64,000 bases of DNA, taken from Chitinophaga pendula. Its GTDB lineage: Bacteria; Bacteroidota; Bacteroidia; Chitinophagales; Chitinophagaceae. The notes below the pieces were generated by a model. The model worked only from the letters and a program-made list of their open reading frames with translations. It was not told where the DNA came from and did no database searches. Made by a program: the position numbers and the translations under genes. The stretch covers positions 1,984,001-2,048,000 of the forward strand of contig NZ_CP077769.1 in the NCBI RefSeq assembly GCF_020386615.1. The letters are read 5' to 3'. Below, in pieces: positions 43,239 through 62,192 of the stretch (positions are counted from its first letter, which is position 1; each line of letters opens with the position of its first letter).

Positions 43239-44996
43239 ATGAGCTTTAATGTAGTAGGGATCTCTGCTTTTTATCACGATTCTGCCTGTTGTATCTTAAA
43301 AGATGGCGTGTTGATGGCGGCTGTCCAGGAAGAACGCTTTAGCAGAAAAAAGAATGACCCGGATCTGCCTAAGGCAGCTTTTCTCTATTGCCTGGAGACG
43401 GCAGGTATCGGTATTGCAGATATCAATTGCATTGCTTATTACGAAGATCCGGTTAAGAAAATGGCACGTCAGTTATGGAGTGGCAAAGATCAGTGGGATA
43501 GAAGTACGGCCCTTAACCTGAGTTCGGGAAATGTAACTGCCCGCATATTAGAAGAACTCGGATATAATGGTCCCGTAAAATATTATGACCATCACCATTC
43601 ACACGCTGCCAGTAGTTTTTTCTATTCCGGATTTGAAGACGCAGCGGTATTTACCATTGATGGAGTAGGAGAGTGGGCTACTACGACGTACGGGATAGGT
43701 CGTGGACAAAAGCTCGACATCTTCGAGGAAGTGATCTTCCCTGACTCGCTGGGTCTTTTGTATAGTACTATCACCAGCTATCTTGGCTTTAGCGTAAACA
43801 GTGGTGAGTATAAGGTGATGGGATTGGCACCTTATGGTACACCTCGCTATGTAGACGCAGTCAGAGCCCTTGTTGAGCAGGATGAGAAAGGACAGTATAG
43901 GCTAAATATGAAATACTTCGATTTCCTCAAGGGAGAGAAGATGTTTGCAGATACGCTATCCGATCTGTTCGGTGTTCCGCCACGGAAGAAGGAAACAGAA
44001 ATATTACAGATACATCAGGATATCGCCAAAAGCCTGCAGGTGGTATTAGAGGAAATATTGATAGCCAAAGCATGTTATTTACATGAGCAGACCGGATCCG
44101 ACAACCTTTGTATGGCGGGCGGGGTCGCGCTTAATTGCGTGGCAAATGGTAAGGTACTGAAGCACAGCCCGTTTAAAAATCTTTTCGTTCAGCCGGCTGC
44201 AAATGATGCCGGATGCGCTTTGGGTGCTGCTGCACTGGCATATACAGAACTGACAGGTTTACCCATGAAAAAGCGATTGGAACATGTCTATCTGGGTCCA
44301 TCCTTTGATGATAATAGAATTGCACGGTTGTTAAAGTCGACGGCATTGAAACATCATTCATTTAATAATGACGAGGGAGAATTGCTGAGAGAGATAGCAC
44401 GCCGAATTGGGGAGGGAAAGGTTATCGGATGGTTTCATGGAAGAATGGAGTTTGGCCCTAGATCTCTTGGAGCAAGATCGATTCTGGCCGATCCCCGAGG
44501 CCCTGAAATGAGAGACCGCATAAATGCAATGGTGAAAAAAAGAGAAGCTTTCCGCCCATTTGCGCCGGCAATACTAAGCTCAGAAACCACGAAACACTTC
44601 GATCTGGATCATGAATCTCCATTCATGTTAGAAACATGTCAGGTTATATCTTCTCTGGATCTCCCTGCTATTACCCACGTGGATGGTTCTGCCAGGGTAC
44701 AGACCGTATCCAGAGATACCAATCCGCGGTTTGCCGGATTGCTGAAGGCCTTTAAGGACCTTACGGGGTGCCCTATCTTATTGAACACATCTTTTAATGT
44801 GAGAGACGAACCTATCGTATGTACACCTGAAGAAGCATTGGTCTGTTTTATTACAACAGATATTGACTGCCTGGTGCTCGAGAATTATATAATCGATGCC
44901 AGTGATAACGATACCAGTATGCTGAAGATGATTAATCTCAATCTGGTAGAACGCCCGGAATTCGAAGTGAACCCCAACGTTTATACATTTATCTAA
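43239..44996 (+). CDS. Carbamoyltransferase (NodU/CmcH family)
   Basis: A 585-residue O-carbamoyltransferase that transfers a carbamoyl group from carbamoyl phosphate (through carbamoyl-AMP) to a hydroxyl. N-terminal Kae1-like half: MSFNVVGISAFYHDSA, then the metal motif HHHSHA at 118-123 and TIDGVGEWATTTYGIG. C-terminal half: GRMEFGPRSLGARSILADPR near 400-419, and PILLNTSFNVRDEPIVCTPEEAL near 508-530. Same family as enzymes that decorate Nod factors, cephamycins and novobiocin. In this locus it likely carbamoylates a hydroxyl of the peptide or its acyl chain. It starts 45 bp after the A-PCP-C gene and 21 bp before the SGNH gene. Confidence 0.95.
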   Translation: MSFNVVGISAFYHDSACCILKDGVLMAAVQEERFSRKKNDPDLPKAAFLYCLETAGIGIADINCIAYYEDPVKKMARQLWSGKDQWDRSTALNLSSGNVTARILEELGYNGPVKYYDHHHSHAASSFFYSGFEDAAVFTIDGVGEWATTTYGIGRGQKLDIFEEVIFPDSLGLLYSTITSYLGFSVNSGEYKVMGLAPYGTPRYVDAVRALVEQDEKGQYRLNMKYFDFLKGEKMFADTLSDLFGVPPRKKETEILQIHQDIAKSLQVVLEEILIAKACYLHEQTGSDNLCMAGGVALNCVANGKVLKHSPFKNLFVQPAANDAGCALGAAALAYTELTGLPMKKRLEHVYLGPSFDDNRIARLLKSTALKHHSFNNDEGELLREIARRIGEGKVIGWFHGRMEFGPRSLGARSILADPRGPEMRDRINAMVKKREAFRPFAPAILSSETTKHFDLDHESPFMLETCQVISSLDLPAITHVDGSARVQTVSRDTNPRFAGLLKAFKDLTGCPILLNTSFNVRDEPIVCTPEEALVCFITTDIDCLVLENYIIDASDNDTSMLKMINLNLVERPEFEVNPNVYTFI

Positions 44997-47144: not shown

Positions 47145-49022
47145 ATGTGCGGTATAACAGGAATAGTATATAAAGATACAGACAGGTCCATCGCCAAGGA
47201 AACACTCCTGAATATGGCGGAGACTATTGAGCATCGTGGTCCGGATGATATGAGTATACATATTGATGGACACGTAGGCCTGGGGTTCAAACGTTTAAGT
47301 ATAATAGATCTGAAAGGGGGACAACAACCGTTTATCTCGCGGGATGGTAACTTGATGATGATCTGTAACGGTGAGATCTATAATTACCGTGAACTGAGGG
47401 CCGGATTAGAAGCCAAAGGACATGTGTTCAGATCAGATTGTGACGTGGAAGTTATTCTCCATCTGTACAGAGAGTACGGCACAGATAGTGTTAACAAGTT
47501 AAATGGCCAGTTCGCTTTTGCGCTTTATGACAAAAATGAGCAAAGCCTGTTTTTTTCCCGTGACCATTTTGGTATCTGTCCGTTTTTCTATAGTCATCAG
47601 GACAATTTCTTTCTGTTCGGTTCTGAAATGAAAGCGATTTTGGCTTACCCGGAATTGGACCGCCGTATCGATCTAAGCGGGCTGGATCAGATATTTTCCT
47701 ATCCTGCTATCATTGCACCTACTACGCTTTTTGCACAGATCCGCAGCCTGGAACCGGGATATTTTGGGATCTACCAAAAAGGAGAACTCAAGTTGAAGCA
47801 GTATTGGGACCTCGAATATCCTACACCAGAACAGCAGGTTGAACAGAAGAGTGAATCCTACTATATAGAAAGACTGAATGAATTAGTGCTGAAATCTGTT
47901 AAGCAAAGACTGCAGGCGGATGTACCTGTGGGATTCTATCTTAGCGGCGGATTGGATTCATCTATCATCGGAGGTACCATGAGACATCTTATCGGTAGTG
48001 GTGAAGTCAATTCATTCTCGATCTGTTTTTCCGGTGCTGCAGACAATAAAGACATAAATGAACAGCGTTTTCAACGTATTATGAGCCGACATGTTAACTC
48101 TGTGCATAACGAGATTGAGTTTGACTGGAATGAGTTTGACAAGAAACTGAAAGATGTTGTCTATTTTTCTGAGTCACCACTGAAAGAAACATATAATGTA
48201 TGCTCTCTGGCTTTATCCCAGCGGGCAAAGGAAAAAAATATAAAGGTTGTACTTTCCGGTGAAGGTGCTGATGAGCTGTTCGGAGGCTACGCAGGATATA
48301 AGTTTGATAGCCAGAGAGCCGGTAAGAAAGTGGTAAAGGATCTGGAACATTTGATGGAGGACCAGGTACGTAAGACGATCTGGGGAGACCCCGATTTTTC
48401 CTATGAAAAGAATGAGTACGAATTCAAAAGCACCAAAGAAGCACTCTATTCTTCACAGGTAAATACGGTGTATCCTCAATTTGATTGCCTCAAGTATCCA
48501 GCTGTCAACCACAGCAGAATAAAAGGACGGCACGTCTTTCATCAACGTTCATATGTAGATTTTAAATTGAGATTGGCAGGACACCTGATCGCTGACCATG
48601 GTGATAGAATGACTATGGCAAATAATGTTGAAGGCAGATATCCCTTTTTGGACCCGGACCTTGTAAGTTTTGTAAGGGAGATTCCGCCGCAAATGATGCT
48701 CAAAGACATGAAGGAAAAGTACCTGCTAAAACAATTAGCAGGGCGATATATTCCTCAGGAAATCATATCCCGGGAAAAATTTGGCTTTGTAGCGCCCGGA
48801 AGCCCGCAGCTGCTAAAGCAAGGTAATGAATGGGTAAATGATATGCTGTCTTACGACTACATCAAAAGACGGGGATATTTTAATCCGGATACTATTGAGC
48901 GCCTTAAAAAGATGTATGCCAGGAAAGACTTTATCCTAAATCCCCCCTATGATATGGATTTGTTGATCATAGTACTTACGTTCAACGTGTTTACATCGTT
49001 ATTTAATGTCCCCAATTATTGA
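47145..49022 (+). CDS. Asparagine synthase-like glutamine amidotransferase (AsnB type)
   Basis: A 625-residue two-domain enzyme. The N-terminal Ntn glutaminase domain (Cys2 in MCGITGIVY; RGPDD near 31-35; CNGEIYNYRELR near 74-85; SDCDVEVILHLY) releases ammonia from glutamine. The C-terminal synthetase domain has the PP-loop SGGLDSS at 267-273 and GEGADELFGGY near 371-381. It turns a carboxyl into an amide through an acyl-AMP. Length and motifs are normal for AsnB. In a synthetase locus it may amidate a side chain or the C-terminus of the peptide, or supply asparagine (inference). It starts 15 bp after the SGNH gene. Confidence 0.95.
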   Translation: MCGITGIVYKDTDRSIAKETLLNMAETIEHRGPDDMSIHIDGHVGLGFKRLSIIDLKGGQQPFISRDGNLMMICNGEIYNYRELRAGLEAKGHVFRSDCDVEVILHLYREYGTDSVNKLNGQFAFALYDKNEQSLFFSRDHFGICPFFYSHQDNFFLFGSEMKAILAYPELDRRIDLSGLDQIFSYPAIIAPTTLFAQIRSLEPGYFGIYQKGELKLKQYWDLEYPTPEQQVEQKSESYYIERLNELVLKSVKQRLQADVPVGFYLSGGLDSSIIGGTMRHLIGSGEVNSFSICFSGAADNKDINEQRFQRIMSRHVNSVHNEIEFDWNEFDKKLKDVVYFSESPLKETYNVCSLALSQRAKEKNIKVVLSGEGADELFGGYAGYKFDSQRAGKKVVKDLEHLMEDQVRKTIWGDPDFSYEKNEYEFKSTKEALYSSQVNTVYPQFDCLKYPAVNHSRIKGRHVFHQRSYVDFKLRLAGHLIADHGDRMTMANNVEGRYPFLDPDLVSFVREIPPQMMLKDMKEKYLLKQLAGRYIPQEIISREKFGFVAPGSPQLLKQGNEWVNDMLSYDYIKRRGYFNPDTIERLKKMYARKDFILNPPYDMDLLIIVLTFNVFTSLFNVPNY

Positions 49023-49069
49023 TTTGCTCCTTGCAGGTTAGAGGTTGTAATCTGTCTAAAATTACAGGA

Positions 49070-50725
49070 ATGAACTTTTTGAATACCCTACTGAAAAAAT
49101 CCATGAAATCCATAGGATACATCGCGATACTGGGTGTCTTCAACAGCTTACTGAATGGAGGATTGCTCATATTTATCAATAGTGCTGTATCCGGAAAGAA
49201 GATACCTTTCCTGTCAGCCTATGACTGGCAGATATATGTGGTGTTGACACTGTCTGCGTTGATCTGTGCAAGGACTTTTCAGAGATACATGATCAAGATT
49301 ACCAATAATATACTGTTTGATTTTGAGCTGGAAGTGCTGAATAAACTCCGTTACGCTAATTATCAGGACTTCCAGGAGCTTGGAAATGAAAAGATATATA
49401 CTGCCATCAATGATACAAGGACATTGGCGCATGCACCGGAAGTCTTTATGAATGCTTTTAACGCGATGATCGTGATCATATGTTGCTTTGGATATTTGTT
49501 TTGGATATCTCCAATGGGCGCCGCTTTTATATTATTGGTGATGGCAGCATTGCTCGTCTTTTACATAGTCAGAAATAATTCGATTGAAAAGGATTTGAAC
49601 CGGCAGCGGGATTTGCAGAATGTCTACTACCGTTACCTGGATGACTTACTGAATGGGTTTAAGGAATTGAAAATGAGTCTGCGACGTAGTCGTAATATCT
49701 TTGAGGATTTTATTATCTCAAATAGGAAGAAAGGACGGGATATAGCGATCAGCACATCTTCCAGATACATGGACAATGAGCTCACTGGTAGCTATAGCTG
49801 GTATATCGTATTGGGCGTCATAATGTTCCTGTTGCCGCGATTGTTTAATGCGGATACCGGCATTTCAACTGCATTCCTGGTTTCCATACTTTATCTCATC
49901 GGACCTATTGCTATATTGATCACATTGATCCCGACATATACAGCTGTCAAGATAGCCATTGGAAGACTTAATGTATTTGATCATCTTGTAGAGTCGATAG
50001 AGCAGGATACCCCAAAAAATACATTGGAATCGTCCCGCGAGCCTTTTAACAGTATTCGCATGGAAGGCGTGAGCTATCGATATTATAATGAAAGAGATGA
50101 GCCTTTCTTATTGGAAAAAATTGATCTGACAATCCGTAAAGGAGAGGTGGTTTTTGTTACCGGAGGAAATGGTAGTGGCAAAAGTACTTTTGGATACCTG
50201 TTGGCCGGCCTTTATAAACCATATGATGGCACGATTTATATGAATGAAAAACCCGTCTCCGATCAGGATTATCCGCACTATAGTAATATGATCAGTGCCG
50301 TGTTTACAAGCGGGCACCTGTTCAATGAGAACTATGATCAGTTTGATCTCACTACCTCGAATAAGAAACTACAGGATCTGATCCGGACGATGGATCTGAC
50401 CGGTATCATAAAACCTAAAGCGGATCAGGCCACCATTTTTGGACGTAACTTTTCGAAAGGGCAGCAGAAAAGGTTGGCATTAGTATACGCATTATTGGAA
50501 GATAAGGAAGTGATCGTATTGGATGAGTGGGCCGCGGAACAGGATCCTTCTTTCCGGGGATTCTTTTATAAGGAATTACTGCCCAGGTTAAAACGGGAAG
50601 GTAAAACCATTATAGCGATTACTCATGATGATGAATATTATAACTGCGCGACGAGGGTCATCAAGTTCAACTTCGGAAAAATTGTCGCAGATGTTACTAA
50701 AGAAAACAGCCTACTAAACGCATGA
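49070..50725 (+). CDS. Cyclic-peptide-export-type ABC transporter (SyrD/PvdE family)
   Basis: A 551-residue fused exporter half-transporter. Six TM segments span about 1-290 and the ATPase about 320-551: Walker A GGNGSGKST, signature FSKGQQKRLALV, and Walker B EVIVLDEWAAEQDPSFR. The DEWAAxQDPxFR form is characteristic of the SyrD/PvdE exporters that move nonribosomal peptides across the inner membrane. The start at 49070 (MNFLNTLLKK) is chosen; a TTG-started extension to 49019 would overlap the preceding stop and add a non-hydrophobic lead. It probably exports this locus's product. Confidence 0.93.
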   Translation: MNFLNTLLKKSMKSIGYIAILGVFNSLLNGGLLIFINSAVSGKKIPFLSAYDWQIYVVLTLSALICARTFQRYMIKITNNILFDFELEVLNKLRYANYQDFQELGNEKIYTAINDTRTLAHAPEVFMNAFNAMIVIICCFGYLFWISPMGAAFILLVMAALLVFYIVRNNSIEKDLNRQRDLQNVYYRYLDDLLNGFKELKMSLRRSRNIFEDFIISNRKKGRDIAISTSSRYMDNELTGSYSWYIVLGVIMFLLPRLFNADTGISTAFLVSILYLIGPIAILITLIPTYTAVKIAIGRLNVFDHLVESIEQDTPKNTLESSREPFNSIRMEGVSYRYYNERDEPFLLEKIDLTIRKGEVVFVTGGNGSGKSTFGYLLAGLYKPYDGTIYMNEKPVSDQDYPHYSNMISAVFTSGHLFNENYDQFDLTTSNKKLQDLIRTMDLTGIIKPKADQATIFGRNFSKGQQKRLALVYALLEDKEVIVLDEWAAEQDPSFRGFFYKELLPRLKREGKTIIAITHDDEYYNCATRVIKFNFGKIVADVTKENSLLNA

Positions 50726-50780
50726 CATAACTAGCGGCATATACTAGATTGCCTTAGTGTGTCCAGTTCTGTTTACTACT

Positions 50781-53700
50781 ATGCAACAGCAGACCACGTT
50801 AATCACCATATTGGAGCAGGCTTCGCAGCGTAATACCGGTATCACCTTCATAAGCGGATCAGGCGAAGAAAAGTATTTATCCTATGCTGCTTTGAAAAAA
50901 GAAGCAACGGCAGCATTATGTTATTTCCGGAAGCTGGGCGTGAATAAAGGAGATGAACTGATCATAAGATTGGAACGTAATGATTTACTCCTAAAGGCTT
51001 TTTGGGGATGTCTGCTAGGAGGGATCATTCCCGTACCGGTATCTTTAGGTAGTCAGGAAGGTCACAAACAGAAGCTTTTTAACATATGGAATAAACTGAA
51101 CCATCCCTTTATTATTGGAGAAAAGGATTGGAAAGAGGATACAGGCATATTAGCGGCAGGGAAAGATCATGAAGACGTTTTTTCCTTCATGCAATCAAGA
51201 TATATCAATGCTTCGCTATTGCCTGATCAGGGTAACGCTGAAGCCGAAGATATCAATCCGGACGATATCGCATATATCCAATTCTCGTCCGGTTCTACAG
51301 GAAATCCTAAAGGTGTTGCACTGACGCATCGCAATCTGCTGGCCAATATGTCAGATATAGCAGAACGATCCTGCACTACCGGTATAGATAAAGCACTTAG
51401 CTGGCTGCCGCTGACACATGATATGGGGCTGATATGTTTTCACCTGACAACCCTCTATACTGGTATTATGCAATACCTGATGCCAGTTAATCTATTCATT
51501 CGGCGCCCACTCATTTGGATGGATAAAGCGAGTGAACATCAGATCACTCAATTGTATGCTCCCAATTTTGGATATCAATATTTGCTCTCGGCGTTGAATA
51601 ACGTAGGGGATGCTCCCGCATGGAAACTGCATAATGTCAGAATTATCTATAATGGAGCGGAACCCATCAATAAAATGCTTTGTGAGGAATTCGCTGCGAG
51701 GATGGAAAGATATGGTCTTCCGGGTAATACCATGTATCCTGGATATGGTTTGGCGGAAGCATGTGTTGCAGTAACGCTGCCGGAACCGGGAGAGGCTGTG
51801 CGATTTGTTGCATTGGACCGAAACTATCTGCAAGTCGGAGAAAGGGTCAGAAATGTAGTGCCGGGAAATAACACACAACCCGTCTATTTCGCTTGTGTAG
51901 GAAAGGCGGTGTCGAACTGCCGGATCAAAATTGGTGATATTCATGGAAATATTTTACCAGATGAGCATATTGGCATAATATGGATAAAAGGAGAGAATGT
52001 AACAAAGGGATATTACAACGATGCGGTTGTAACCAATGAAGTGATCGATAGAGAAAACTGGCTCAATACAGGCGACCTCGGATACCTGGTAAATAACACC
52101 TTGGTAATAACCGGGCGGAAAAAGAATATCATTATAATTAATGGACAGAACTACTATCCTCAGGATATAGAATATTTTGCACAGCAGGCGGAGGGCGTAA
52201 GACCGGGCACTGTAGTAGCCTGTGCTGCCAAAGAACGTCTTAACGACCAGCAGCAGCTGATTGTTTTTGTACAATTCAAAGGAAAAGCGGCAGATTTCCG
52301 GTTGCTGATGATGCGTATCAGGGATAAGATAGAGAATGCGATGAACCTCCTGCCAGATAATATCGTACCGGTCAAAACAATACCCAAAACAACCAGTGGT
52401 AAAATACAACACTATCTATTAGTCGAGGCATATCAGCAGGGGGCGTTTGATCAGCAATTAATGGAAATTGAACGCCTGCATCCGATAACAGCAGATCAAG
52501 GAGTCGATGAGTGTTGGCAGAAATTAGTAATAATTGTTGCGGATCTCCTCAATACAGTGCCCAAACTGATAGGCCCGGATGTCGATCTCTTTGCGGGAGG
52601 GCTTAATAGCCTCAAGGCTATTAAATTGATAAGCAGGTTGGAAAGGGAAGGATATCATCTTACCCCGAAAGAAGTATTTGAAAACACTACCGTTGGAAAA
52701 TTGCATCAACGTTTGGCAAACGAGGTACCAGGTCAGACAGTTGCCGGCATCAACGTGAGTCCGGATTATCATCATTACAGGTTAAGTCGGGGACAACTTC
52801 GCTTCTGGTTATTAGAGCAGGTACAACCGGGAAATGCAGCAGCAAATATCGTGAGCGTTAATAAGATAGCAGGAAAATTTGACTATTCCTCCTTTAATAA
52901 TGCTTTTAAGGAACTGGTTCGTCGCCATGAAAGCCTCCGGACTGTTTTTCGCCAACAGGATACCGCGGTGGTACAGGTAGTCCTTCCCTTTGAAGAGATT
53001 TGTTTTGAAGTAGCATACACAGATCTGTCGAAGTCACCAGACGGCCGTCAACAGGCAGTGGAGTATGCACATACCCAGAGCCGTCAGCCCTTTGACCTGG
53101 AGCAGGGACCGTTGTTACGGGTATCTTTATTGCAGCTGTCAGCTTCGGAATATGTTTTTATTCTGGTGATCCACCATATTGTCAGCGATGGTTGGTCCAT
53201 AGAGGTGCTGAGCCGTGAGCTCCGTACGCTGTACCATATATACAGGAATGGGGGAGCTCTTCCTTCATTGCCCCGGCTACAGTATAAAGATTACCTGCAT
53301 TGGCGCAGTGACCGCTTCCAGGCGGGTGCCGGTGCGGGATCTGTCGATTATTGGCAGCGGCAGCTTTCCGGTCCGCTGCCGGTGTTAGATCTGCCGGTTC
53401 TGCATAATGGTGCCGCTGCCACCTGGCTTCGAGGACATATTATTTGTCGTCGTCTGCCGGCACCTGTATGGAAGGGGCTGAAGCAATTAAGTGAATCGGG
53501 TCATCAGACGGTGTTTACAACACTGATGTCCGTAATGGCGTTGCAGCTATACCGCTACACCGGGCAGGAAGACCTGGTGATCAGTACAGATACGGCGGGC
53601 CGTTATCATCGTGACCTGGAAGATCAGATAGGCTACTATTTGCAGTTATTACCTATCCGTATCCGCCTGTCAGGGGGGATGTCGTTTATGGAGCTGCAGC

Positions 53701-56700
53701 AACAGGTGCAGTCGTTATTACTGGACGCTTATGATCACCAGGAGTTCAGTGATGAAGCGTTGGAAGGGCTATCGGTGGCACCAGGAACCGGTCGTTCCCC
53801 CTTATTTGACTTGCTGTTCTTATATCAGCAGTTTGATCAGGCCCATGGTTTTGCGCTGGAGCTGCCAGATGTGGACGTAACGGCCGTAGACATAGATAAT
53901 GGGAGCAGCCTGACACCCTTACAGTTGGAATGCTGGCCGCGAGGGGAAGAGCTGGAGTTGAAACTGCGTTACAATAGCGACATGTTCGGTGTATTGCAGA
54001 TGGAGAGCCTGCTGGATCACTTCGTCAATTTATGTAGTGGTGTGCTCTCATCTCCGGATGCCTCCCTGTCATTTTATGATCTGCTGGGAGAAGGAGAACG
54101 AGCATTGCTATCCGGTTTTAATGCGACGTCTGTTTCTTATGATACCGGTTATACGGATATCAGTTCATTATTATCGGCTCAATGCTATGAATGGGGAGAT
54201 CGTACTGCTTTGGTGTACGAAGGTGCCTGCTGGAGTTATGCTGAACTGGGGGATCAGGTTACCCGTTTATCGCACCGCCTGCAATCTGATTGCCAGGTAC
54301 GGGTAGGCGCATTGATAGGTCTTTTATCAGACCGGAGCCCGTTACAGATAATTGCAATGTTGGGGATATTAAAGGCCGGTTGTGCCTATGTTCCATTAGA
54401 TGGTAGTTATCCATCCTCCCGTATCGATTATATGATATCAGACAGTGGTCTGACCACGCTGTTGGTTCCTGATGATCAGTATGATCATTACAGCGTTACA
54501 GTTCAGGATCGCTGCCAGGTGTTTGCTATATCGCCCCTTCTTTCTGCTCGGGTGAGAGATGAAGTAATTGTAACACCAGCTATATCGGGTGATATGCTGG
54601 CTTATGTGATGTATACTTCCGGCTCTACCGGTCATCCTAAAGGAGTGATGATCAGTCATGCATCACTACTTGATTATGTCTATACCTTCCGGAATTACTT
54701 TGAGTTACGGCCTGATGATGTAGTAATACAACAATCATCTTTATCTTTTGATACCGCAGTGGAGGAGATCTATCCTGTGTTATCTGTTGGAGGCCGGCTG
54801 GTGTTGTTACGAGGCGGTGGTGCCGATGTCGACGGGCTGAGTGCGGCTATTGAAGAGGAGCAGGTTACCTTATTAAGTACGACGCCGCTGGTGCTGGATG
54901 CATTAAGAGGGTATACATCCCGGTTGGCTAGTCTGCGTATAGCGATCAGTGGCGGCGATCAGTTACAGCGTAGTCATATCTCCCATATGCCTGCTCATGT
55001 GCGGCTTTATAATAGTTATGGACCGACAGAGAGTACGGTATGTGCCAGTTATCATCGTATAGAAGATTTATCAGAAGCAGGTATAATAGGCCGTCCGATA
55101 GCTAATCGCCAGGTATATGTGCTGGATGGAGCGCTTCGGGAGCAACCGGTGGGGATCATTGGAGAGCTTTATCTTGGTGGTAAAGGTCTGAGCCTGGGCT
55201 ATTATGGACGTCCCTCACTGACGGCAGCGCGATTTATAGCGCATCCGGATGGTACAGGTCTTTTATATCGTAGTGGTGATTATGGTCGCTGGCGTGCTGA
55301 TGGTACCTTGGAGTTCACCGGCCGGGCGGATGACCAGTTGAAGATCCATGGCTACCGTGTGGAGCCTGGAGAAGTAGCTTATATGCTGTCTCAATATGAA
55401 GGGATTGCGCAGGTGGAGGTGATAGGTTTACGTTTAGGGGAGGGTAGCCGCCTGGCAGCTTACTATACCTCGTCGGTTCCCTTATCAGCTAGTTCGTTGC
55501 GTAGCTGGTTAAGTCATCGCGTGCCTTCTTATATGGTGCCGACTTATTTTGTGGAGTTACCGCAATTGCCGATGACTGCACATGGTAAGGTCGCGCGGGA
55601 TCTTTTACCAGCACCCGGGGATACGATACTCCAAAGTTATGTAGCCCCGTCGACTGCGACAGAACGGTTGTTATCTGCTATCTGGTCAGAGGTATTGGGA
55701 GTAGCTACGATTAGTGTGACAGATAACTTTTTTGAATTAGGAGGCCAGTCGCTGAAGGCGATGCAGGTGTTAACACGTTTATATCAGCAGCATGGTGTTA
55801 AGCAGGGTTTAGGAGAGATGTTCAGCTATCCGGATCTCCGTTCTCAGGCAGCCGCAGCATCTCAACAGCAGCAGGATATCCATGTGTCTATTCCGCTGGC
55901 TCCATTCCAATCGCATTATCCACTTTCTCCTGCGCAACGCAGATTGTGGATACTGGAGCAAATGCATAGTGGAACCGTGGCACTTAATCTGTCATGGTTA
56001 TGCCAGCTTAATGATCTTAAGGAGGGAAGTTTTGACTATTCCTCCTTCAATAATGCTTTTAAGGAACTGGTTCGCCGCCATGAAAGCCTCCGGACTGTTT
56101 TTCGCCAACAGGATACCGCGGTGGTACAGGTAGTCCTTCCCTTTGAAGAGATTTGTTTTGAAGTAGCATACACAGATCTGTCGAAGTCACCAGACGGCCG
56201 TCAACAGGCAGTGGAGTATGCACATACCCAGAGCCGTCAGCCCTTTGACCTGGAGCAGGGACCGTTGTTACGGGTATCTTTATTGCAGCTGTCAGCTTCG
56301 GAATATGTTTTTATTCTGGTGATCCACCATATTGTCAGCGATGGTTGGTCCATAGAGGTGCTGAGCCGTGAGCTCCGTACGCTATACCATATATACAGGA
56401 ATGGGGGAGCTCTTCCTTCATTGCCCCGGCTACAGTATAAAGATTACCTGCATTGGCGCAGTGACCGCTTCCAGGCGGGTGCCGGTGCGGGATCTGTCGA
56501 TTATTGGCAGCGGCAGCTTTCCGGTCCGCTGCCGGTGTTAGATCTGCCGGTTCTGCATAATGGTGCCGCTGCCACCTGGCTTCGAGGACATATTATTTGC
56601 CGTCGTCTGCCGGCACCTGTATGGAAGGGGCTGAAGCAATTAAGTGAATCGGGTCATCAGACGGTGTTTACAACACTGATGTCCGTAATGGCGTTGCAGC

Positions 56701-59700
56701 TATACCGCTACACCGGGCAGGAAGACCTGGTGATCAGTACAGATACGGCGGGTCGTTATCATCGTGACCTGGAAGATCAGATAGGCTACTATTTGCAGTT
56801 ATTACCTATCCGTATCCGCCTGTCAGGGGGGATGTCGTTTATGGAGCTGCAGCAACAGGTGCAGTCGTTATTACTGGACGCTTATGATCACCAGGAGTTC
56901 AGTGATGAAGCGTTGGAAGGGCTATCGGTGGCACCAGGAACCGGTCGTTCCCCCTTATTTGACTTGCTGTTCTTATATCAGCAGTTTGATCAGGCCCATG
57001 GTTTTGCGCTGGAGCTGCCAGATGTGGACGTAACGGCCGTAGACATAGATAATGGGAGCAGCCTGACACCCTTACAGTTGGAATGTTGGCCGCGAGGGGA
57101 AGAGCTGGAGTTGAAACTGCGTTACAATAGCGACATGTTCGGTGTATTGCAGATGGAGAGCCTGCTGGATCACTTCGTCAATTTATGTAGTGGTGTGCTC
57201 TCATCTCCGGATGCCTCCCTGTCATTTTATGATCTGTTGGGAGAAGGAGAACGAGCATTGCTATCCGGTTTTAATGCGACGTCTGTTTCTTATGATACCG
57301 GTTATACGGATATCAGTTCATTATTATCGGCTCAATGCTATGAATGGGGAGATCGTACTGCTTTGGTGTACGAAGGTGCCTGCTGGAGTTATGCTGAACT
57401 GGGGGATCAGGTTACCCGTTTATCGCACCGCCTGCAATCTGATTGCCAGGTACGGGTAGGCGCATTGATAGGTCTTTTATCAGACCGGAGCCCGTTACAG
57501 ATAATTGCAATGTTGGGAATATTAAAGGCCGGTTGTGCCTATGTTCCATTAGATGGTAGTTATCCATCCTCCCGTATCGATTATATGATATCAGACAGTG
57601 GTCTGACCACGCTGTTGGTTCCTGATGATCAGTATGATCATTACAGCGTTACAGTTCAGGATCGCTGCCAGGTGTTTGCTATATCGCCCCTTCTTTCTGC
57701 TCGGGTGAGAGATGAAGTAATTGTAACACCAGCTATATCGGGTGATATGCTGGCTTATGTGATGTATACTTCCGGCTCTACCGGTCATCCTAAAGGAGTG
57801 ATGATCAGTCATGCATCACTACTTGATTATGTCTATACCTTCCGGAATTACTTTGAGTTACGGCCTGATGATGTAGTAATACAACAATCATCTTTATCTT
57901 TTGATACCGCAGTGGAGGAGATCTATCCTGTGTTATCTGTTGGAGGCCGGCTGGTGTTGTTACGAGGCGGTGGTGCCGATGTCGACGGGCTGAGTGCGGC
58001 TATTGAAGAGGAGCAGGTTACCTTATTAAGTACGACGCCGCTGGTGCTGGATGCATTAAGAGGGTATACATCCCGGTTGGCTAGTCTGCGTATAGCGATC
58101 AGTGGCGGCGATCAGTTACAGCGTAGTCATATCTCCCATATGCCTGCTCATGTGCGGCTTTATAATAGTTATGGACCGACAGAGAGTACGGTATGTGCCA
58201 GTTATCATCGTATAGAAGATTTATCAGAAGCGGGTATAATAGGCCGTCCGATAGCTAATCGCCAGGTATATGTGCTGGATGGAGCGCTTCGGGAGCAACC
58301 GGTGGGGATCATTGGAGAGCTTTATCTTGGTGGTAAAGGTCTGAGCCTGGGCTATTATGGACGTCCCTCACTGACGGCAGCGCGATTTATAGCGCATCCG
58401 GATGGTACAGGTCTTTTATATCGTAGTGGTGATTATGGTCGCTGGCGTGCTGATGGTACCTTGGAGTTCACCGGCCGGGCGGATGACCAGTTGAAGATCC
58501 ATGGCTACCGTGTGGAGCCTGGAGAAGTAGCTTATATGCTGTCTCAATATGAAGGGATTGCGCAGGTGGAGGTGATAGGTTTACGTTTAGGGGAGGGTAG
58601 CCGCCTGGCAGCTTATTATACCTCGTCGGTTCCCTTATCAGCTAGTTCGTTGCGTAGCTGGTTAAGTCATCGCGTGCCTTCTTATATGGTGCCGACTTAT
58701 TTTGTGGAGTTACCGCAATTGCCGATGACTGCACATGGTAAGGTCGCGCGGGATCTTTTACCAGCACCCGGGGATACGATACTCCAAAGTTATGTAGCCC
58801 CGTCGACTGCGACAGAACGGTTGTTATCTGCTATCTGGTCAGAGGTATTGGGAGTAGCTACGATTAGTGTGACAGATAACTTTTTTGAATTAGGAGGCCA
58901 GTCGCTGAAGGCGATGCAGGTGTTAGCACGTTTATATCAGCAGCATGGTGTTAAGCAGGGTTTAGGAGAGATGTTCAGCTATCCGGACCTCCGTTCTCAG
59001 GCAGCCGCAGCATCTCAACAGCAGCGGGATATCCATGTGTCCATTCCGCTGGCTCCATTCCAATCGCATTATCCACTTTCTCCTGCGCAACGCAGATTGT
59101 GGATACTGGAGCAGTTTGAAGGGGCCGGTAATGCATATAACATACTGGTGCATTATAAAATACAGGGGAGCCTGGACCCTCATCTGATGGAAGCGTCCCT
59201 CAATAAGTTAGTCGCAAGACATGAAAGCCTGCGTACTACTTTCGGAGAGATCAATGGAGAGCCTTACCAATGTATAGGAGCACCGGAAGAAAGCAGCGGG
59301 ATTATCAACTATAAAGATTTAAGTGATATAGCCGACCAGGAGGTTGCTCTCTCAAATGGAGTACTACAAGCTATTACATGGACATTTGATATCGGCAAAA
59401 CGCCATTACTGCACGTTTGGTTATGGAAGCTTTCCACAACTACTTACCAATGTTTATTCGCTATTCATCATATAATAGCAGATGAATGGTCTGTAAATGT
59501 ACTGGTCAGAGAATGGCTGTCCACCTACAGTAAGTTAATGGAAGGTCGGGTAGAGCAGCTGCCGCCTTTAACACACCAGTATAAAGATTATGCATATTGG
59601 CAATTGGAGCTCCTCGCGGGAGATGAAATGGCCATACATCGGACATACTGGCTGGAACGCCTTCATGACCTGCCTCCTGTATTGGAATTGCCGTCTGATT

Positions 59701-62192
59701 TTTCAAGGCCAGTCCTTCCGCAGTATAAAGGTAACAGACAGACTTTTGAACTGCCAACGGCAACTACAGCAATACTCATCGACTTACTGAAGAAACAACA
59801 GGTCAGTCTTTTCGCAGGACTCCTCTCCCTTGTACATGCGATCTTATTCCGTTATACCGGTCAGGCAGACCAGATAATCGGAATACCGGTTGCAGGGAGA
59901 GATCATCCGGATACTGAAAATCAGATCGGTTTTTTTGTGAATACATTGGCCTTACGCAGCAGGTTGTCAGGACAGATGAATTTGCTCGAATTGCTGGCCG
60001 AAGTGAATGGTAATTTATTAAATGCCTATGGCCATCAGGCCTATCCTTTTGATCTGCTGGTTCAGGACCTTCAATTACCACGTGATACCGGACATGCTCC
60101 CCTTTTCGATATTATGGTAGTGTTACAGCATGTGTGGCAGCAAGAAACAACGGGACAGCTAACATTTGAAGAATTACCCGTACATGCCGGCGTTAGTAAA
60201 TTCGATCTTACTTTTTTGTTCCGGGAAACAGATAAAGGAATATCATTTACACTCGAGTATAATGATAGCTTATTTGAGTATGGCCGTATAACGAGGCTGG
60301 GGCAGCATATCATAAATCTTACGGAAAGTTTGGTGAATGATCCTTCTAAATCATTGCATACGGCACAATTGCTTTCCGATACAGAAAAAGAGATATTGTT
60401 ATTCGGATTTAATCCGGCAGTTCCTGCATCGACCAGATCTACATTGGTCGAACTGTTCGAAAGGCAAGTAAGATGTTCTCCGGAGCTCCTTGCCTTTAAG
60501 GACGGAAACAAAGAGATAAGTTACCGGGAGCTGAATATTATGTCCAACCGGCTGGCACAGTACATATACACCCAATATGAGGTTAAAAAGGGGGCAGTTA
60601 TTCCATTGTTATGTACGCACAGTGAGTGGCTGCTTGCAGGTATGCTGGCTATTCTAAAATTAGGCGCTTCTTATTTGCCAATTGATCCTTTACTACCAGT
60701 GGAAAGGATCCGTTATATAGCAAAGGATGCGAACGTGAAAATCGCATTGACAGACACGGATATTACGCTGTTCGATGTCGAAATGATATATGTACCGGAC
60801 AATTGGAAGGAGGTAGTGACATATCCGGAAATAGAGATACCGTTGGCTCCCCAAAGTACGGACACTGCGTATGTAATTTATACATCCGGTTCCACAGGAC
60901 ACCCCAAAGGGGTAGTGATCGCTCATGAGAGTATCGTACAATTATGTCAATGGCATAACAAAACGTTTGAGGTGTCGGAAAAGAGTAAAGCCACATTGTA
61001 CGCAGGCATCAGTTTTGACGCTTCAGGATGGGAGATATGGCCCTACCTGCTTTCCGGCGCGTGTCTCATGCCGATACCTGAACATATTAAACTGGATATG
61101 CCATTGCTGGGGCAGTTCATAACAATACAACACATTACACATTGTTTTTTACCAACTGCTGTCTGCAGATTGTTCCTGAATAGTCAAATTCCTGTGAGCA
61201 AAGACCTGGTTCTGCTGACAGGGGGAGAAGAACTGGGCGCTGTTACTACTCCTCCCTGTAAATTATATAATAACTATGGTCCTACTGAGTCAACGGTGGT
61301 GACTACTTCCTGCCGGGTAGTTGATACAGCGGGCAAGCCGGCCGCTATCGGAACGCCAATTACCGGGCGAAGCATCTATATACTGGACGATATGCTCCAA
61401 TTACAACCTATAGGTATTAAGGGAAAGCTCTATATAGGAGGTAGCGGTCTGGCAAAGGGGTACCTGAATCGCCCTGAACTGACCGCGGAAAAGTTTACCG
61501 GTCAGTTGTACGGACAAGATGTTTTGTATAATACAGGAGACCTTGCACGATGGCTGCCGGATGGTAATATCGAATTCCTCGGGCGTGCGGATACACAGGT
61601 CAAAGTAAGAGGATATCGCATAGAACTGTCGGAAATAGAACGGGTACTACTGAAAGAGGAGCATATACAACAGGTCATCGTAACGGCATTAGGAAAGGAT
61701 AACGACAAATATTTAGTTGCATACTATATCTCCCCAATAACACATGACCCGGCAGTGCTTCGTGATAATTTGTCAAAATATTTGCCGGTATATATGTTGC
61801 CTGGCTATTTCATTCAATTAGATAAGCTACCCCTGACGGCAAATGGTAAAATCGATACTGTCCAACTTCCTATGCCTCAAAGAAACATCGTAACGTATAT
61901 TCCGCCACGTACTGAAACCGAGGCAAAACTGGCAGAAATATGGAAGGATATACTAGGTATTGAGCAGGTGGGCATATACGACAATTTCTTTTTGTTAGGT
62001 GGGCATTCACTGAATGCATTAAAAATACTGTCGCGCATTCAACAGGAAATGACTGTTAAAATTGAGTTGAAACATATTTTCCTTAAGCCCGTATTGGCAG
62101 AACTATATGATCAGATCTGCCTGCTGGAATGGGCAAAGGACTTGCAGGATGAAGCAATCAGCAGTACCCATGTCGATAAAATTGTAATATGA
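50781..62192 (+). CDS. Nonribosomal peptide synthetase: acyl-AMP ligase-ACP-(C-A-PCP)x3
   Basis: About 3803 residues (a GTG at 50757 could add eight). Approximate DNA spans: fatty-acyl-AMP-ligase-like domain 50800-52480 (FSSGSTGNPKGVALTHRN; LPLTHDMGLICF); ACP 52500-52735 (GGLNSLKA); C1 52770-54090; A1 54140-55620; PCP1 55640-55860 (LGGQSLKA); C2 55915-57240; A2 57290-58770; PCP2 58790-59010; C3 59068-60390; A3 60430-61890; PCP3 61910-62130 (LGGHSLNA). Pocket residues: A1 and A2 D-T-E-S-I-G-S-V-C-K (near a remembered Lys code), A3 D-A-W-F-L-G-N-V-V-K (a Leu code). C1 and C2 carry HHIVSDG, C3 HHIIADE. No E, MT or TE domains. Likely product segment: acyl-basic-basic-Leu. The stop overlaps the next gene by 4 bp. 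Confidence 0.95.
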   Translation: MQQQTTLITILEQASQRNTGITFISGSGEEKYLSYAALKKEATAALCYFRKLGVNKGDELIIRLERNDLLLKAFWGCLLGGIIPVPVSLGSQEGHKQKLFNIWNKLNHPFIIGEKDWKEDTGILAAGKDHEDVFSFMQSRYINASLLPDQGNAEAEDINPDDIAYIQFSSGSTGNPKGVALTHRNLLANMSDIAERSCTTGIDKALSWLPLTHDMGLICFHLTTLYTGIMQYLMPVNLFIRRPLIWMDKASEHQITQLYAPNFGYQYLLSALNNVGDAPAWKLHNVRIIYNGAEPINKMLCEEFAARMERYGLPGNTMYPGYGLAEACVAVTLPEPGEAVRFVALDRNYLQVGERVRNVVPGNNTQPVYFACVGKAVSNCRIKIGDIHGNILPDEHIGIIWIKGENVTKGYYNDAVVTNEVIDRENWLNTGDLGYLVNNTLVITGRKKNIIIINGQNYYPQDIEYFAQQAEGVRPGTVVACAAKERLNDQQQLIVFVQFKGKAADFRLLMMRIRDKIENAMNLLPDNIVPVKTIPKTTSGKIQHYLLVEAYQQGAFDQQLMEIERLHPITADQGVDECWQKLVIIVADLLNTVPKLIGPDVDLFAGGLNSLKAIKLISRLEREGYHLTPKEVFENTTVGKLHQRLANEVPGQTVAGINVSPDYHHYRLSRGQLRFWLLEQVQPGNAAANIVSVNKIAGKFDYSSFNNAFKELVRRHESLRTVFRQQDTAVVQVVLPFEEICFEVAYTDLSKSPDGRQQAVEYAHTQSRQPFDLEQGPLLRVSLLQLSASEYVFILVIHHIVSDGWSIEVLSRELRTLYHIYRNGGALPSLPRLQYKDYLHWRSDRFQAGAGAGSVDYWQRQLSGPLPVLDLPVLHNGAAATWLRGHIICRRLPAPVWKGLKQLSESGHQTVFTTLMSVMALQLYRYTGQEDLVISTDTAGRYHRDLEDQIGYYLQLLPIRIRLSGGMSFMELQQQVQSLLLDAYDHQEFSDEALEGLSVAPGTGRSPLFDLLFLYQQFDQAHGFALELPDVDVTAVDIDNGSSLTPLQLECWPRGEELELKLRYNSDMFGVLQMESLLDHFVNLCSGVLSSPDASLSFYDLLGEGERALLSGFNATSVSYDTGYTDISSLLSAQCYEWGDRTALVYEGACWSYAELGDQVTRLSHRLQSDCQVRVGALIGLLSDRSPLQIIAMLGILKAGCAYVPLDGSYPSSRIDYMISDSGLTTLLVPDDQYDHYSVTVQDRCQVFAISPLLSARVRDEVIVTPAISGDMLAYVMYTSGSTGHPKGVMISHASLLDYVYTFRNYFELRPDDVVIQQSSLSFDTAVEEIYPVLSVGGRLVLLRGGGADVDGLSAAIEEEQVTLLSTTPLVLDALRGYTSRLASLRIAISGGDQLQRSHISHMPAHVRLYNSYGPTESTVCASYHRIEDLSEAGIIGRPIANRQVYVLDGALREQPVGIIGELYLGGKGLSLGYYGRPSLTAARFIAHPDGTGLLYRSGDYGRWRADGTLEFTGRADDQLKIHGYRVEPGEVAYMLSQYEGIAQVEVIGLRLGEGSRLAAYYTSSVPLSASSLRSWLSHRVPSYMVPTYFVELPQLPMTAHGKVARDLLPAPGDTILQSYVAPSTATERLLSAIWSEVLGVATISVTDNFFELGGQSLKAMQVLTRLYQQHGVKQGLGEMFSYPDLRSQAAAASQQQQDIHVSIPLAPFQSHYPLSPAQRRLWILEQMHSGTVALNLSWLCQLNDLKEGSFDYSSFNNAFKELVRRHESLRTVFRQQDTAVVQVVLPFEEICFEVAYTDLSKSPDGRQQAVEYAHTQSRQPFDLEQGPLLRVSLLQLSASEYVFILVIHHIVSDGWSIEVLSRELRTLYHIYRNGGALPSLPRLQYKDYLHWRSDRFQAGAGAGSVDYWQRQLSGPLPVLDLPVLHNGAAATWLRGHIICRRLPAPVWKGLKQLSESGHQTVFTTLMSVMALQLYRYTGQEDLVISTDTAGRYHRDLEDQIGYYLQLLPIRIRLSGGMSFMELQQQVQSLLLDAYDHQEFSDEALEGLSVAPGTGRSPLFDLLFLYQQFDQAHGFALELPDVDVTAVDIDNGSSLTPLQLECWPRGEELELKLRYNSDMFGVLQMESLLDHFVNLCSGVLSSPDASLSFYDLLGEGERALLSGFNATSVSYDTGYTDISSLLSAQCYEWGDRTALVYEGACWSYAELGDQVTRLSHRLQSDCQVRVGALIGLLSDRSPLQIIAMLGILKAGCAYVPLDGSYPSSRIDYMISDSGLTTLLVPDDQYDHYSVTVQDRCQVFAISPLLSARVRDEVIVTPAISGDMLAYVMYTSGSTGHPKGVMISHASLLDYVYTFRNYFELRPDDVVIQQSSLSFDTAVEEIYPVLSVGGRLVLLRGGGADVDGLSAAIEEEQVTLLSTTPLVLDALRGYTSRLASLRIAISGGDQLQRSHISHMPAHVRLYNSYGPTESTVCASYHRIEDLSEAGIIGRPIANRQVYVLDGALREQPVGIIGELYLGGKGLSLGYYGRPSLTAARFIAHPDGTGLLYRSGDYGRWRADGTLEFTGRADDQLKIHGYRVEPGEVAYMLSQYEGIAQVEVIGLRLGEGSRLAAYYTSSVPLSASSLRSWLSHRVPSYMVPTYFVELPQLPMTAHGKVARDLLPAPGDTILQSYVAPSTATERLLSAIWSEVLGVATISVTDNFFELGGQSLKAMQVLARLYQQHGVKQGLGEMFSYPDLRSQAAAASQQQRDIHVSIPLAPFQSHYPLSPAQRRLWILEQFEGAGNAYNILVHYKIQGSLDPHLMEASLNKLVARHESLRTTFGEINGEPYQCIGAPEESSGIINYKDLSDIADQEVALSNGVLQAITWTFDIGKTPLLHVWLWKLSTTTYQCLFAIHHIIADEWSVNVLVREWLSTYSKLMEGRVEQLPPLTHQYKDYAYWQLELLAGDEMAIHRTYWLERLHDLPPVLELPSDFSRPVLPQYKGNRQTFELPTATTAILIDLLKKQQVSLFAGLLSLVHAILFRYTGQADQIIGIPVAGRDHPDTENQIGFFVNTLALRSRLSGQMNLLELLAEVNGNLLNAYGHQAYPFDLLVQDLQLPRDTGHAPLFDIMVVLQHVWQQETTGQLTFEELPVHAGVSKFDLTFLFRETDKGISFTLEYNDSLFEYGRITRLGQHIINLTESLVNDPSKSLHTAQLLSDTEKEILLFGFNPAVPASTRSTLVELFERQVRCSPELLAFKDGNKEISYRELNIMSNRLAQYIYTQYEVKKGAVIPLLCTHSEWLLAGMLAILKLGASYLPIDPLLPVERIRYIAKDANVKIALTDTDITLFDVEMIYVPDNWKEVVTYPEIEIPLAPQSTDTAYVIYTSGSTGHPKGVVIAHESIVQLCQWHNKTFEVSEKSKATLYAGISFDASGWEIWPYLLSGACLMPIPEHIKLDMPLLGQFITIQHITHCFLPTAVCRLFLNSQIPVSKDLVLLTGGEELGAVTTPPCKLYNNYGPTESTVVTTSCRVVDTAGKPAAIGTPITGRSIYILDDMLQLQPIGIKGKLYIGGSGLAKGYLNRPELTAEKFTGQLYGQDVLYNTGDLARWLPDGNIEFLGRADTQVKVRGYRIELSEIERVLLKEEHIQQVIVTALGKDNDKYLVAYYISPITHDPAVLRDNLSKYLPVYMLPGYFIQLDKLPLTANGKIDTVQLPMPQRNIVTYIPPRTETEAKLAEIWKDILGIEQVGIYDNFFLLGGHSLNALKILSRIQQEMTVKIELKHIFLKPVLAELYDQICLLEWAKDLQDEAISSTHVDKIVI
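52878..55960 (+). repeat. Intragenic tandem duplication, copy A (C-A-PCP module 1)
   Basis: This 3083-bp stretch and the one at 56031-59113 are nearly identical, offset by 3153 bp (1051 codons). It runs from about 35 residues into the C domain, through A and PCP, to the C1 motif of the following C domain. By eye I counted 14 differences, all transitions, two changing an amino acid (Thr/Ala and Gln/Arg near the PCP end). Confidence 0.95.
56031..59113 (+). repeat. Intragenic tandem duplication, copy B (C-A-PCP module 2)
   Basis: Second copy of the module. The 70 bp between the copies (55961-56030) encode the N-terminal lobe start of the module 2 C domain and are unrelated to the matching place in module 1. 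The near-identity extends through synonymous sites, so the duplication or a conversion event is recent. Confidence 0.95.

Follow-up and report, generated by a model that had tools for sequence, protein, structure and literature searches.

The locus considered here raises the question of how two modules of one enzyme come to be almost identical, whether through recent gain of a module or through repeated overwriting of an old pair. The window analyzed is a stretch of 64,000 nucleotides from Chitinophaga pendula (contig NZ_CP077769.1, positions 1,984,001 to 2,048,000 of the forward strand), and the gene in question encodes a predicted lipopeptide synthetase. Judged from its sequence, this nonribosomal peptide synthetase (NRPS) begins with a fatty acyl-AMP ligase (FAAL)-like domain and an acyl carrier protein (ACP), followed by three condensation–adenylation–peptidyl carrier protein (C-A-PCP) modules, the first two of which share a repeat of about 3 kb. 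We consider it likely that these two are an old pair whose body has been overwritten in each lineage, with a short position-specific donor strand in the C domain selectively kept.

A single open frame of 3811 amino acids contains both copies of the repeat. Pfam places four AMP-binding, three Condensation, and four PP-binding stretches on the synthetase, with AMP-binding and PP-binding domains ahead of the first C domain; the FAAL-like label comes from the NCBIfam fatty acyl-AMP ligase model NF006624, which scores 519.9 bits, under its cut-off of 600. Each copy is 3083 bp long within a period of 3153 bp. The first-pass annotation had described two 3083-bp blocks with about 14 differences, all transitions and 12 of them silent, and recomputation returned exactly these figures (14 of 14 transitions, 12 of 14 silent), the only replacements being T1673A and Q1706R (residues counted from the GTG start at 50757). 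The block edges that it gave, about 35 residues into the C domain on the left and just past motif C1 of the following C domain on the right, were also borne out, and identity drops immediately beyond them. Across the whole genome (one contig, 7.66 Mb), the two blocks are the sole full-length matches among the 43 matches listed. Silent changes make up 35.6% of the possible transitions in the block, so that 12 or more of 14 would arise with P = 1.7e-4; sequencing error is therefore unlikely, as had been argued, and both copies should be real and constrained. The homogenized bodies have 49.8-49.9% GC with T > A, and the rest of the gene 43.7-43.9% GC with A > T. Both A domains carry the pocket code DTESASSVCK, in keeping with the claim that they share one pocket; this and all other pocket codes were read by a motif rule whose positions we take to be those of the A-domain pocket, and no substrate is claimed.

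Relatives with the same synthetase start bear directly on the age of the pair. The census covered 79 genomes of the genus, 19 of them with a match at 1e-150 or better, and 395 genomes of the phylum, one of which besides C. pendula matched at 1e-170 or better; in a search with the FAAL part, the named relatives include several Chitinophaga, the best at 49-51% identity. Four relatives (G007, G102, and G027 of the same genus and Kordia aestuariivivens) have the same FAAL-ACP start with both modules readable beside the same upstream genes. The first-pass annotation had called the duplication recent and had proposed counting copies at homologous loci: all four readable relatives have two modules and none has one copy, each pair is homogenized separately, and the starts of the C domains are shared by position across species. 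Modules 1 and 2 are 97.3% identical in DNA in G007, 94.9% in G102, 94.5% in G027, and 94.1% in Kordia. In G103, G025, G289, and L032, the sequence stops at or beside a contig end within module 1, and these ends resemble short-read assembly breaks at repeats. Ten other FAAL-led synthetases compared are not homogenized: G010, G056, G046, G023, and G049 show no repeat between modules 1 and 2 at 75% over at least 100 bp, G047 has only a 111-bp piece, and L034, L035, L037, and L041 show none at 80% over at least 400 bp. Because both modules occur in five lineages and the segments after motif C1 (N segments) are shared by position, the pair appears to be older than the split of the lineages compared.

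The same pair is near-identical within each species, yet its proteins have diverged between species, which argues for an old pair homogenized again and again, that is, for concerted evolution, most simply by gene conversion. At the protein level, whole modules 1 and 2 are 91-97% identical within C. pendula, G007, G102, and G027; between species, modules are about 44-45% identical for C. pendula and G007 and 81-83% for G102 and G027 (overall span 44-84%). Synonymous divergence (dS) between the two bodies is 0.013 in C. pendula, 0.054 in G007, 0.145 in G102, 0.149 in G027, and 0.184 in Kordia, and between the bodies of G102 and G027 it is 0.99-1.07. In all five homogenized synthetases, paralogous modules are closer to each other than to their orthologues. 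Trees built separately for the C body and the A domain, from 15 of 20 synthetases (all but G115, L032, L033, L036, and L044), pair module 1 with module 2 inside each of the five species, with support of 0.91-1.0 where printed and none printed for the C. pendula pair. The A domains of modules 1 to 4 of G007 form one clade, so homogenization extends further in that genome. Of the two options left by the first-pass annotation, gene conversion is supported, as the simplest means of homogenizing an old pair, and module gain is not, relatives already carrying both modules.

Several patterns inform the mechanism and extent of this exchange. Silent differences are unevenly spread in the G007, G102, G027, and Kordia pairs (p 0.0064 or less). 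Evidence on mechanism comes from this mosaic divergence, seen in four of the five pairs, from an island spared within the body, and from distant near-identical tracts; unequal crossing-over is compatible with it as well. The NRPS stretches of C. pendula hold 21 pairs (the focal one included) of at least 500 bp at 85% identity or more, in three of eight stretches; some of these tracts link modules that sit in different genes, as much as 17.8 kb from each other, which would suit gene conversion. The homogenized edges fall in one zone, on the left 4-17 residues before RHESLRT and on the right between about 7 residues ahead of the following C1 motif and 15 past its start. As to the direction of conversion, the C body of C. 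pendula resembles the second C domain more than the first in G010, G046, G056, G047, G049, and G115, and a weakly supported tree node (0.58) attaches its C clade to a second C domain; its A body is nearer the first A domain in G046, G056, G047, G049, and G115, though not in G010. In the NRPS stretches taken, A domains with a twin at 90% or more number 21 of 76 in C. pendula, 6 of 65 in G106, 8 of 58 in G041, and 10 of 76 in G054.

Further repeats were seen along the way. Just beyond the window, the same cluster holds two copies of a 6.06-kb block of two modules, 96.4% identical and separated by a 266-bp spacer (G000:C1:2062824-2068881 and 2069148-2075184), and elsewhere in the genome a 4.6-kb repeat at 97.6% identity has copies overlapping by about 14 bp (G000:C1:2539600-2544173 and 2544160-2548730), a true flush tandem unlike the focal pair. 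Modules 3 to 5 of G007 (L138/L139) are three tandem modules in the same gene at 97-98% DNA identity, and module 5 further shares an 876-bp tract with module 1 of that gene (94.7% identity).

The segment after motif C1 behaves quite differently from the body. Over the 25 alignment columns that follow the motif, modules 1 and 2 share only 19-33% identity within a species, against 79% between the first and 87% between the second segments of G102 and G027; the second segments of C. pendula and G007 agree at 58%. In the quartet of modules from G102 and G027, sites that group by position fall in codons 0-60 (39 sites), codons 330-360 (12), and the last interval (4), with none elsewhere; species-grouping sites occur in every interval, and six sites in total fit the third grouping. 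Codons 330-360 form a second position-specific island in these two genomes, near the latch loop. When labels were permuted over the five species, position labels ranked 1 of 16 for same-position identity in the N segment, with no signal in the body. Between G102 and G027, the first and second segments have nonsynonymous divergence (dN) of 0.138 and 0.052 and dS of 1.55 and 0.54. The second N segment has 2-4 extra residues and reads NL[SC]W in three of the five homogenized synthetases.

From its location, this strand is a candidate site for encoding whether a C domain takes a fatty acid or a growing peptide. By alignment and structural model, the spared strand is predicted to carry the equivalents of SrfA-C residues 37, 39, and 41, which in the available text of PMC11142918 were chosen as lining the fatty-acyl donor pocket; these residues and the latch are described at that pocket in the accessible parts of PMC11142918 (on SrfA-C) and PMC7804268 (on RzmA-Cs). 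Among the homogenized synthetases, the equivalent of residue 39 is Ser, Thr, or Cys in the five first C domains and Trp or Lys in the five second ones. Using residue volumes that we take to be standard, this residue is larger in the second than in the first C domain in 13 of 15 pairs, non-homogenized synthetases included. The motif NL[SCN]W in strand beta1 is frequent in second C domains of FAAL-led synthetases (for example at 55989-55997) and was not found in the first or later C domains examined of such synthetases; counts are on unique segments, and a wider N[LIVM]xW tally of second C domains takes in one NMPW (L057). The pocket codes of A1 and A2 are equal within G007, within G102, and within G027, and the Kordia pair differs at one position. 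The code DTESxS(T/S)VCK recurs at the first module of many FAAL-led synthetases, homogenized or not, which suggests a common first residue among them.

A working model can be envisioned from the layout. Module 1 would join a residue to the fatty acid carried on the ACP, and module 2 would extend this acylated residue by another of the same kind. Because the activated residue and the acceptor side are alike, most of the body would be interchangeable, and the donor is what differs between the two modules. In each lineage, recombination between the modules, most simply gene conversion, keeps overwriting about 3 kb of module body, and the stretch just past motif C1 stays position-specific in both C domains. 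The sparing of this strand would be economically explained if it matched each C domain to its fatty-acyl or acyl-aminoacyl donor, so that its overwriting was selected against. A bolder extension is that the roughly 20 residues after motif C1 are a natural donor-selector cassette, such that one C-A-PCP body takes a fatty-acyl-ACP or an acyl-aminoacyl-PCP donor according to the strand (Ser/Thr/Cys against Trp/Lys at 39), at times with help from the latch, in an experiment that nature repeats in several lineages; we offer this tentatively, as a doubtful but possible outcome.

Several observations weigh against this account of an old pair with a selected strand. The first segment of C. pendula is 33% identical to the first and 38% to the second segment of G007; being no closer to its positional counterpart, it leaves the position signal of that pair to the second segment. 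The tree of N segments is weak (24 columns), unites the second C domains at 0.66 only, and puts the first C domains in two places with C3 domains among them, and the shortness of the segment limits the support it lends to the age of the pair. The second island is confined to G102 and G027, the same stretch being homogenized in C. pendula and G007. In C. pendula the differences between the two copies are too sparse for the mosaic test to be informative (p 0.79 and 0.93), and an apparent clustering of these 14 differences near the block ends (p 3e-4 with ends chosen by eye) was dropped after a scan test gave p 0.23. The structural positions come from a model together with alignment-based numbering. 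The first C domains do not have a smaller residue 39 than later C domains (p 0.77), where small residues also occur, and it is the second C domains that stand out. Positions 143, 145, 155, and 159 were in the SrfA-C library too, and it is at three of these, outside the strand, that the reprogrammed variant has the changes named in the available text (W143T, Y145V, F155I); as described there, the best variant carries no change at Glu37 (PMC11142918). The C. pendula equivalents of 143, 145, 155, and 159 lie within the homogenized body and are identical in both modules.

Among the alternatives, the one that deserves the most serious thought is that the N segment was spared mechanically, having already diverged, with an indel, so that conversion tracts stop there and no selection for donor fit is needed. 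Tract ends are expected at heterology and the extra residues of the second segment would block pairing, so that this account is quite possible, if not the one we would favor; it must contend with a segment conserved by position between G102 and G027 at the dN and dS given above, and with the consistent difference at residue 39 that extends to non-homogenized synthetases. Concerted evolution through unequal crossing-over, with expansion and contraction of an array, would share the old pair and dispense with gene conversion. Crossovers within the body would likewise leave segment 1 in front and segment 2 behind, and the tandem modules 3 to 5 of G007 attest to array growth in the same gene, but both the spared island inside the G102 and G027 bodies and the tracts common to distant modules in different genes would need double events, and we regard this route as rather unlikely.

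A recent tandem duplication of one module has in its favor the very high identity (dS 0.013) and the existence of genuine flush tandems, such as the 4.6-kb repeat and the three tandem modules noted above. The focal copies are not tandem in the head-to-tail sense that had been claimed, since an unrepeated 70-bp spacer (55961-56030) separates them and the junction is single-copy; with both modules also present in G007, G102, G027, and Kordia, and the second N segment shared by position through its extra residues and motif, a recent origin is very improbable. An assembly artifact is less probable still and can hardly be entertained: such a repeat does trouble assemblers, as the breaks in module 1 of G103, G025, G289, and L032 attest, but this genome is one contig with a unique spacer and a strong silent bias, and the same layout is found in the one-contig genomes G007 and G102. 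We therefore retain the old pair, homogenized around a kept strand, as the probable history; the features of the locus are collected below.

Features of the synthetase gene and its upstream neighbors (positions within the window)
Feature	Position	Strand	Remarks
Lipopeptide synthetase gene (predicted)	50757..62192	+	3811 aa from a GTG start; FAAL-like domain and ACP ahead of three C-A-PCP modules
N segment of C domain 1 (past motif C1), position-specific	52821..52877	+	Residues 689-707; spared from homogenization
Ser700	52854..52856	+	Probable equivalent, by alignment, of SrfA-C pocket residue 39
Copy 1 of homogenized body	52878..55960	+	Most of C1, A1, PCP1, first residues of C2
Non-repeated spacer, 70 bp	55961..56030	+	Encodes the position-specific N segment of C domain 2 (past motif C1; about residues 1736-1758)
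Trp1747	55995..55997	+	Probable equivalent, by alignment, of SrfA-C pocket residue 39
Copy 2 of homogenized body	56031..59113	+	Most of C2, A2, PCP2, first residues of C3
Remainder of module 3 (C3-A3-PCP3)	59114..62192	+	Outside repeat
Carbamoyltransferase gene	43239..44996	+	Upstream; common to related clusters
Asparagine synthase-like gene	47145..49022	+	In 7 of 13 loci compared
ABC transporter gene, cyclic peptide export type	49019..50725	+	TIGR01194 just above cut-off; in 7 of 13 loci compared

It is disputed whether condensation domains read the donor and, if so, at what site, and C domains as strict selectivity filters have been argued against, according to the available text of PMC8097286. 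A natural module pair identical but for one short strand, in several lineages, comes near to a controlled comparison. Should donor choice be set by the strand, the strand would offer an exchange point for starting lipopeptides, distinct from the C-A-linker and C-subdomain fusion points described in the accessible part of PMC7804268. The near-identity of modules, meanwhile, is no clock for the time of module gain.

Concerted evolution of NRPSs is already established (Medema 2014, PMC4256081), as is intragenomic NRPS recombination (PMC9205934, PMC8097286); the spared donor-pocket strand within homogenized NRPS modules may be new, no instance of it having come up in searches of open-licence papers. 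In the parts of PMC4256081 available, NRPS and polyketide synthase (PKS) domains are, as here, closer to same-cluster neighbors than to counterparts in related clusters, and for daptomycin, A54145, and CDA this likeness is reported for A and most C domains; the present case differs in that two entire C-A-PCP bodies are homogenized save for one short position-specific C-domain strand, and in Bacteroidota. The recombination landscape of Baunach 2021 (PMC8097286) likewise includes intragenic exchange between modules, in its available text mainly at the A core with C domains spared, whereas the tract described here begins within a C domain and reaches motif C1 of the following one.

Genetic repeats of intense nucleotide skews (GRINS), described in PKSs, resemble the focal repeat as stretches of about 1 kb or longer that are >90% identical within one assembly line (PMC10394414, available text), although the focal repeat is in an NRPS. 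A reading of the repeat as GRINS was rejected: GC skew and TA skew both exceed 25% in 0 of 52 intervals of 500 bp in copy 1, with best joint values of 0.215 and 0.183. Skew was also compared between near-identical and other domains within clusters holding both, with one value per near-identical family, in C. pendula, G007, G106, G041, and G054. Near-identical A domains of C. pendula (10 against 30 families) have higher TA skew (p 0.0002) and GC skew (p 0.0015); the TA link recurs in G054 (p 0.0027), no skew link was seen in G106 or G041, and G007 allowed only 3 against 2 families. Among C domains of C. pendula, a difference was seen for just two all-site measures, TA skew (p 0.0012) and GC (p 0.026), and for none taken at four-fold sites. 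GC is higher in near-identical A domains of C. pendula (p 0.0005), G106 (p 0.017), G041 (p 0.001), and G054 (p 0.045), and at four-fold sites only in G041 (p 0.0135).

Upstream of the synthetase, the loci with both the asparagine synthase-like and the ABC transporter genes are those of G027, G103, G102, G025, Kordia, L032, and G007, some other loci being short on that side. Chitinopeptins were considered as a product class and set aside, as the words carbamoyl and FAAL are absent from the main text of PMC9248904; no product is named. Contig C22 of G027 (L140, first 20 kb) begins inside a similar module and carries similar genes, possibly from a second strain (G027 is listed at 7% contamination). 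Between the carbamoyltransferase and asparagine synthase-like genes, positions 45018-47129 encode a 703-amino-acid protein with only sub-threshold TPR and GDSL matches and no NCBIfam match, which lies upstream in 8 of the 13 loci compared.

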